The notes under the pieces were generated by a model. It ran no database searches, had not been told where the DNA came from, and saw only the letters and a program-made list of their open reading frames with translations. From Thermodesulfobacteriota bacterium (lineage in GTDB: Bacteria; Desulfobacterota; Thermodesulfobacteria; Thermodesulfobacteriales; Thermodesulfatatoraceae), in NCBI GenBank assembly GCA_013153725.1, contig JAADDY010000021.1, forward strand, positions 1 to 32,824: a stretch of DNA of 32,824 nt, written 5' to 3'. The translations under genes were made by a program, and so were the position numbers. This document shows, piece after piece, positions 8,177 to 10,439 of the stretch (its first letter is position 1; each line of letters begins with the position of its first letter).

Positions 8177-8222
8177 CCAGCCTACTGGAAAAGGACTAAT
8201 TCAACCTTTGAAGGAGGGGTAA

Positions 8223-9392
8223 ATGTCAGAGTTCAAAGAGTCCGTCTCAAGATGTTGGAAGAGTTTTGCCCTTTCCAACTGGTCCCCGATGATGGGTGGC
8301 GTGATGCTAGCCTTTTTCGCCATCCTTCTGGAGACCTGGTATCGCCCCTGGGGTATCGTGGGTGGTATCAGAAACTGGGCAGATTGGCTCTTCTACGCCA
8401 TCGGTTTTTATGAAGATGCTCCCCCGCATCCTCTGGAATTTTCATCTTCTGTTCTGGATATCGGCTTTATCTGGGGAGCCGCCATTTCTGCCTTTCTGGC
8501 CCGGGAATTCGGCCTGCGATTCCCTCCCAAGATCGAATACATCAAGGCCATCGTGGCCGGCATCCTCATGGGGATCGGTTCGGCGCTTGCCATCGGGTGT
8601 AACGTAGGCGGCTTCTACGTTGCCCTTCACAATCTGGCTGCCAACGGGCTGGCCATGATGGTGGGGCTCATCTTCGGCGTAATCGTTGGGATCAAATATC
8701 TCTACTGGGAGCTTGAACACTTCCCCAGCGCTGGTGGCTTTGAAATAAGTCTTCGTAAGGTGGGGCCCTATATTGGCTTTCTTCTCCTGGTAGGTCTGAT
8801 CGTGGCCACCTACGCCTACTTTGGAAACGAGGAGATCGAAAACGCCGAAGTCTTGGGAGGCTGTCTCATCATCACGGCTGGCATCGGCTACATCATGCAC
8901 CGGAGCCGTTTCTGCATGGTCAACGCCCTCCGGGAGCCCTTCATGACCGGTGAAGCTGCCATGGGGAAGGCTCTCATGGTGAGCATCATCCTGGGGGCAA
9001 TTGGCGTGGCCATCCTGAAATATCAGGAGATACAGCCTGAAATGGCCTACGTTGTCCCGGCCTTCGGCTGGGGAGCCCTGGTGGGTGGTTTCATCTTCGG
9101 AGCAGCGATGGTCGTCGCCGGTGGGTGAGGGTCCGGCAGCCTTTGGCGGGTCGCCGAAGGACAGATCAAGCTCGTAGTGGTAACCATCGTCTTTGCCCTC
9201 ACCAACTCCATCATCCGCTACTATTTCTCCGAGTACGACGTCATTGAAGAAGGCTATCTGGGGAAAGCGGTCTTTCTCCCGGAATATCTCGGATACGGCG
9301 GAGCGCTTTTCCTGATCACCTTGATCGCGGTAGTGTGGTATGTAATCATTGACTGGAACGAAGAATCTAATAAGCTGGTGATCGAGATGTAA
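8223..9392 (+). CDS. yedE: YeeE/YedE-family sulfur permease with in-frame UGA read as selenocysteine
   Basis: Read through the TGA at 9126-9128 the protein is 389 aa with about nine to ten membrane segments. Visible family motifs: ALAIGCNVGG (Cys126), RSRFCMVNALREPFMTG (Cys231) and GG-U-GSGSLWRVAEGQ, where U302 stands at the position of the conserved Cys of GGC(G/A)SG-(S/T)L-(W/F)R. The frame stays open for 87 more codons, including further membrane segments, to a TAA at 9390-9392. A SECIS-like hairpin follows the UGA. In the related YeeE thiosulfate importer, conserved pore cysteines pass the substrate through the membrane; by analogy U302 would be one of these. First gene of a YedE-TusA-DsrE cassette. 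Alternatives: sequencing error (TGC/TGT to TGA) or a truncated gene; the preserved frame and motif argue against decay. Confidence 0.85.
9129..9162 (+). promoter_or_regulatory. Putative bacterial SECIS element
   Basis: Directly 3' of the UGA. Upper stem UUUGGCG (9142-9148) pairs with CGCCGAA (9152-9158), including one G-U pair, and exposes a GGU apical loop (9149-9151); opening the last G-C pair gives a GGGUC loop. A lower helix GUCC (9131-9134) with GGAC (9159-9162) extends it. The GGU starts 20 nt after the UGA, close to the 18 nt in E. coli fdhF, whose SelB-binding loop is also built around GGU. Confidence 0.75.
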
Positions 9393-9439: not shown

Positions 9440-9697
9440 ATGTCCGACATCAAAATCGCACCAGAAGGTATCAAGCCCGACATGACCATCGATTGTAAAG
9501 GTCTGTCTTGCCCCATGCCCCTTCTCAAGACCAAGAAGGCCATCCAGAAGCTTCAAAGTGGGCAAATCCTGGAAGTTCTGGGCACAGATCCTGGTTCCCG
9601 TAACGACATCCCGGGATGGTGTGAACGCGCTGGTCACGAGTACCTCGGTGAGCGCGAAGATTCTGGTTTCATCCGTTTCTACGTAAAGAAAGGCTAA
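9440..9697 (+). CDS. tusA: TusA-family sulfur carrier protein
   Basis: An 85-aa protein with the TusA/SirA signature CKGLSCPMPLLKTKKAI: Cys24 of the CPxP motif is the persulfide-carrying residue. Cys19 and Cys61 are extra. TusA proteins shuttle sulfane sulfur in the cytoplasm. The start at 9440 is chosen for its strong AAGGAGG site; an upstream TTG at 9419 is less likely. It lies between the YedE permease and DsrE-like proteins, so it probably accepts sulfur entering through YedE. Codon use (GGT, CGT, GCT) hints at high expression. Confidence 0.93.
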   Translation: MSDIKIAPEGIKPDMTIDCKGLSCPMPLLKTKKAIQKLQSGQILEVLGTDPGSRNDIPGWCERAGHEYLGEREDSGFIRFYVKKG

Positions 9698-9718: not shown

Positions 9719-10051
9719 ATGGCTAAAGATCCGGACAAGCTTGGCATTTTCGTAACCAACCCCCAGTACATGGGGCATTTGATGAAAATCGTGGAGGCTG
9801 CCCAGCGGGCAGGCAAGAAAGTCAAAATCTTCTTCACCTTTAAGGCCGTTCATCTCACCAAACAGCCTGATTTCCCCAAACTCGTCAAAATGATCCCCGA
9901 ACCTGATCTGGCTATCTGTGCCGACTCCTACACCTGTGAAGGTTTTGACGTCGAAACCGATATCCCCGGTGGTCTCACTCCCAAGCAGATGCGTACCCAG
10001 GCTTATCATGGTGAGATCCTGGACGAGTGCGGCAAATATTTCGTGCTTTAA
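9719..10051 (+). CDS. DsrE-like sulfur relay protein
   Basis: A 110-aa protein with a DsrE/DsrF-like fold: it opens KLGIFVTNPQYMGHLMKIVE, has an AQRAGKKVKIFFTFKAVH strand-helix, and a Cys-bearing segment LAICADSYTCEGF (Cys67, Cys73), plus Cys104. DsrE-family proteins carry or exchange sulfane sulfur with TusA. Good ribosome site (GGAGGTG) before the ATG. Third gene of the cassette. Assignment rests on overall pattern and neighbourhood. Confidence 0.8.
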   Translation: MAKDPDKLGIFVTNPQYMGHLMKIVEAAQRAGKKVKIFFTFKAVHLTKQPDFPKLVKMIPEPDLAICADSYTCEGFDVETDIPGGLTPKQMRTQAYHGEILDECGKYFVL

Positions 10052-10070: not shown

Positions 10071-10439
10071 ATGGCTGAATCTTTGAAGGTATACTTCCTG
10101 GTAGCCAATCGCATCTATATCGGCGACTGTATCCGCTCCACCCTGGGGCTCTCTGTAGAAAACCACTACTCCCATTGCTGCGTCTTCTACAACAAGATGC
10201 CCCGTCTTACCGAATACGTCAAAGAAAATATCGACTGGATCCGCGACATGGAAGGAGACGTCTTTTGTGTCGTGGATACCATCGAAGACGAAGAAGCCAA
10301 AAAGTACAATCTGGAAGAAGCTGGGCTTACGCCCATCACTCTGGAGGAGCTCGCCCAGAAGCTCAGAGAAGCTGATGTCATCATCGGTTACGGGCTTCCC
10401 AAACAGAAGCATGCTCCTCCACCAGCCTGTGCTGACTAA
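10071..10439 (+). CDS. Small Cys-rich conserved protein of the YTD sulfur cassette (possibly DsrE/DsrF-like)
   Basis: A 122-aa protein beginning LKVYFLVANRIYIGDCIRST with Cys20, a Cys-Cys pair at 36-37 (YSHCCVFY), Cys66 and Cys120. The alternating strand-helix pattern and C-terminal READVIIGYG suggest a DsrE-superfamily fold, but I cannot name a family from sequence alone. Strong AAGGAGG site, 19 nt after the dsrE-like gene. The several cysteines and the location point to sulfur transfer (inference). Confidence 0.75.
   Translation: MAESLKVYFLVANRIYIGDCIRSTLGLSVENHYSHCCVFYNKMPRLTEYVKENIDWIRDMEGDVFCVVDTIEDEEAKKYNLEEAGLTPITLEELAQKLREADVIIGYGLPKQKHAPPPACAD

Follow-up and report, generated by a model that had tools for sequence, protein, structure and literature searches.

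We propose that the YeeE/YedE-family permease gene yedE, carried in a window of 32,824 nucleotides (the whole stretch of DNA analysed, from contig JAADDY010000021.1 of a thermophilic sulfur bacterium of the Thermodesulfobacteriota), encodes a full-length selenoprotein: its in-frame UGA at codon 302 is very probably read as selenocysteine (Sec), which would place selenium in the core of the channel. The basis for this reading is comparative, namely selection on the read-through frame, exchange of Cys and UGA among relatives, a conserved SECIS-like hairpin, and the presence of selA, selB and selD. Taken jointly, the reading in which a full-length permease of a YTD-type cluster would receive Sec302 by way of SelB, tRNA-Sec and the hairpin, and would hold it mid-pore in a relay of sulfur anions to TusA, has in our estimate a probability of roughly 94%. 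Sec insertion itself is inferred, and so are the substrate and any gain in rate that the selenol might bring.

The yedE reading frame and the history of codon 302

The yedE gene lies on the plus strand at 8223..9392, begins with an ATG at 8223 downstream of a Shine-Dalgarno-like AAGGAGG (8211..8217) and, with the UGA taken as Sec, encodes a permease of 389 aa (Sulf_transp, PF04143) that ends at a TAA stop (9390-9392). As the original prediction had it, the frame that starts at this ATG meets a TGA at 9126-9128, in the context VVAGG-U-GSGSLWRVAEG, and continues for 87 further in-frame codons to 9392; this is the only in-frame TGA, and the frame is otherwise open. It was likewise correct that standard ORF calling splits the gene, into products of 301 aa (8223-9128) and 71 aa (9177-9392), and yedE will be cut short by any annotation software that takes UGA as a stop. 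By itself the segment after the TGA matches the PF04143 family model with E = 8.5e-4. Against this model the score is 163.4 bits (cut-off 27) for the read-through protein and 122 bits for the truncated form. Other TGA-ended ORFs with open extensions also occur in the window.

The window's genome is a draft assembly of 1.6 Mb, 81% complete, from a genus that is Thermodesulfatator by its named members. TGA stands at codon 302 in five genomes of this genus, the window's included, and the five encoded proteins are 90-95% identical; TGC or TGT stands there in three same-genus genomes, including that of the cultured T. autotrophicus S606 (L056), and in all other relatives examined. Across 132 homologous loci, a count in which some genomes are entered under two locus ids, the codon is Cys in 123 and TGA in nine, all nine from the five genomes. 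Cys/UGA exchange at residue 302, originally suggested as a check, is present in the aligned homologs. In a protein tree the five TGA genes are monophyletic (100/98) and sister to the Cys-bearing proteins of the same genus. Since they form one clade inside a Cys background, the simplest history would be a single Cys-to-Sec change in the ancestor of the five Thermodesulfatator-clade genomes. Past the TGA the codons evolve under strong purifying selection, with dN/dS of ~0.02-0.07 among the TGA genomes, as strict as before the TGA. Plasmid records searched for YedE held distant YedE proteins only.

A putative SECIS hairpin and the selenocysteine machinery

A putative bacterial SECIS hairpin follows the TGA on the plus strand (9140..9160), in which 9140-9148 would pair with 9152-9160 as a 9-bp stem around an apical GGU loop at 9149-9151 (CCUUUGGCG-GGU-CGCCGAAGG in the RNA), the loop lying 20 nt past the UGA. 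Published bSECIS rules ask for a loop of 3-9 nt, a G among its first two nucleotides and a distance of 16-37 nt (PMC13188914), and the GGU loop at 20 nt agrees with them. Taken in one sequence the hairpin is mildly unusual but not exceptional (P ~0.03 by synonymous reshuffling, z = -1.2 by dinucleotide shuffling) because some pairing is to be expected from the conserved peptide. With single-sequence statistics this weak, we rely on how the hairpin compares among species. Of its degenerate codons, none of seven varies across the five TGA genomes, against 256 of 305 (84%) elsewhere (hypergeometric P = 4e-6), and in the three same-genus Cys genes four of the same seven vary. Judged by eye, two Cys relatives retain much of the pairing, since it is partly dictated by the conserved peptide. 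Being invariant across the five TGA genomes, the stem has no compensatory changes. The SelD of the window's genome (L044, G000:C106:3460-4383) has an in-frame UGA of its own, followed by a hairpin (GCCAAC-GGU-GUUGGC) also 20 nt away; as a predicted selenoprotein it serves as an internal positive control for the hairpin geometry.

The original prediction had also pointed to the sel genes, and here the protein genes were found and the tRNA gene was not: the window's genome encodes selA (643.8 bits), selB (384.2) and selD (383.4), all above cut-off, and no tRNA-Sec was found in its incomplete, 81% complete assembly. The tRNA-Sec-like matches checked there are tRNA-Ser genes (gct, tga), hence not selC. 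A tRNA-Sec scoring 82.9 bits is present in all seven same-genus genomes searched besides the window's; one same-genus genome has, beside its main match of 82.9 bits, a second strong one of 67.7 bits (G004:C6:94758-94853). In two of the genomes (L170, G001:C117; L169, G002:C67) the tRNA-Sec gene sits close to a contig end, directly next to a pair of tRNA-Ser genes and the gene for the small SRP RNA. SRP RNA is essential in bacteria. The small SRP RNA was not found in the window's assembly either, and the tRNA-Ser genes present there have anticodons that differ from those beside tRNA-Sec in the two genomes. Since this essential neighbour is missing too and the tRNA-Ser anticodons differ, the absence of tRNA-Sec is best read as an assembly gap that removed the whole tRNA-Ser/tRNA-Ser/SRP RNA/tRNA-Sec locus.

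Other accounts of the TGA fare poorly against this evidence. That it is a true stop, in a gene that is decaying or yields a 301-aa product, is what standard ORF calling would imply, yet we consider this extremely improbable, because the same codon is TGA in five genomes, purifying selection is equal on both sides of it, a truncated protein would lack the last predicted transmembrane helices, and no relative examined ends at codon 302, as the original prediction had allowed that homologs might. A sequencing or assembly error that turned TGC or TGT into TGA might be suspected where every one of the five genomes is a draft and the majority are labelled MAGs; its probability seems to us close to nil, as five separate assemblies concur on TGA at 9126-9128 and constraint on the hairpin codons is confined to the TGA group. 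Decoding as an amino acid other than Sec, through a reassigned code or near-cognate read-through, would suit the failure to find tRNA-Sec in the window's assembly. We judge it very improbable given selA, selB and a UGA-containing selD in the same genome, tRNA-Sec in all seven other genomes of the genus, and a Cys codon at the site in all other relatives examined, which is what would be expected for Sec. The claim that YedE is a selenoprotein with UGA at a conserved pore cysteine is thus strongly supported by the Cys/UGA exchange, selA, selB and selD, the hairpin and the selection on the frame.

Pore cysteines and a proposed sulfur relay

The AlphaFold model of YedE (pLDDT 89.6) has a YeeE fold with three pore positions, C126, U302 and C231, and its best PDB matches are the StYeeE entries 8k1r and 6lep (Foldseek E = 3e-5 to 8k1r). 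In alignments the Cys126 codon (TGT, 8598..8600) is the equivalent of StYeeE Cys293, the 'first' pore cysteine, the putative Sec302 (TGA, 9126..9128) that of Cys91, the 'second', and the Cys231 codon (TGC, 8913..8915) that of Cys22, the 'third'; the C91A form is labelled inactive in PDB entry 6lep. The three StYeeE cysteines form a row through the membrane, and the ion is picked up at the cytoplasmic face by a TusA-like partner (PMC11073785). YeeE pore cysteines are taken to relay sulfur anions across the membrane, by a mechanism that is debated, with a hydrogen-bond relay and covalent transfer as the alternatives (PMC11582611).

Downstream of yedE, on the same strand, lie genes for a TusA-family sulfurtransferase with a CPMP motif (9440..9697; PF01206, E = 2.3e-27), conserved beside yedE in relatives; for orf110, a cluster protein of 110 aa with a weak, below cut-off DsrE-like match (9719..10051; PF02635, E = 0.077); and for orf122, a conserved cluster protein of 122 aa with no significant Pfam match (10071..10439). 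The last two are also conserved neighbours, and the order yedE-tusA-orf110-orf122 is kept in many relatives. Compared with the YTD set of YedE, TusA, a DsrE-related protein and two CHPs, the window has YedE, TusA, the weakly DsrE-like orf110 and one further conserved protein, while no fifth member was recognised, and in its gene content it resembles a YTD-type cluster. The YTD cluster has been linked with sulfur disproportionation (PMC9751629, PMC8780430), a link through which Sec302 would tie selenium supply to that metabolism.

We propose the following model. SelB and tRNA-Sec, steered by the hairpin just past the UGA, would insert Sec at residue 302, the second of the three pore positions. 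Along these positions a sulfur anion, either thiosulfate or some sulfane-sulfur species, would pass inward from the outside, and TusA would receive it on the cytoplasmic side. Judging from the StYeeE cysteine alignment and the tusA neighbourhood, Sec302 most likely occupies the central step of a relay that passes sulfur anions on to TusA. As the original prediction suggested, a selenol at this site might lower the pKa and quicken persulfide exchange. The swap of Cys for Sec between sister species at a single pore position would then offer a ready-made probe of relay chemistry.

A second YTD-type yedE with an in-frame TGA, still unconfirmed, lies in a genome of the same phylum and another family (L153, G198:C14:6122-7384, minus strand; assembly 82% complete). 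Its TGA falls at the equivalent of C126 and StYeeE C293, the first pore cysteine, rather than at 302; its neighbours are tusA-orf110-orf122, and a modest hairpin (CAGCC-AGUU-GGCUG) lies 22 nt after the UGA. The genome has selB (385 bits). Since no tRNA-Sec was found in this 82% complete assembly and none of the relatives searched shares the TGA, a sequencing error may explain this second case. That Sec entered the pore relay of YTD permeases at least twice and at two positions, the middle cysteine in Thermodesulfatator and the first in the second genome, is in our view an even chance. If true, two entries would suggest selection for a selenol in the YTD sulfur-transfer path.

Comparison with known permeases

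The original prediction knew of no established Sec-containing permease of this type, and in this it has to be amended: at the level of the family, a Sec-containing YeeE/YedE protein with the motif GUxSG (WP_012471001.1) is already catalogued as a prediction (PMC13188914, PMC9312934). That protein belongs to the same Pfam family, and its motif fits the G-U-G-S-G at residue 302; the comparison is by family and motif as named in those two papers. The main texts of the primary papers that they cite do not name YeeE/YedE. Sec-containing YeeE/YedE proteins as a kind are therefore already known, as a prediction, and what may be new is the YTD-cluster setting, the recent Cys-to-Sec switch and the second, unconfirmed YTD YedE with a TGA; our search of the open-access literature turned up no paper that connects Sec with the YTD cluster, or selenoproteins with sulfur disproportionation.

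Sec within a YedE is a matter separate from selenium transport by YedE/FdhT proteins, which are thought to move selenium. The selenium-metabolism YedE/FdhT models (NF033796, TIGR04112) share the superfamily and a similar domain order with the window's YedE, which nevertheless scores far below their curated cut-offs (114.7 bits against 350 and 42.2 against 200). It also falls below both TsuA models (NF052577, 94.7 bits against 400; NF041049, 81.1 against 645). The YeeE/TsuA of Spirochaeta thermophila (6leo, 6lep, 8k1r) has the same fold, a trio of pore cysteines at the aligned positions of C126, U302 and C231, and a TusA-like partner, YeeD. It differs in having Cys instead of Sec and, by alignment, in the swapped order of its two halves, and the resemblance is distant (a low 18% identity, TM ~0.5). 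Far closer are the YTD YedE proteins of sulfur disproportionators such as Thermosulfurimonas dismutans (L057), which is 74% identical and has the same neighbours, tusA-orf110-orf122, but carries Cys at 302.
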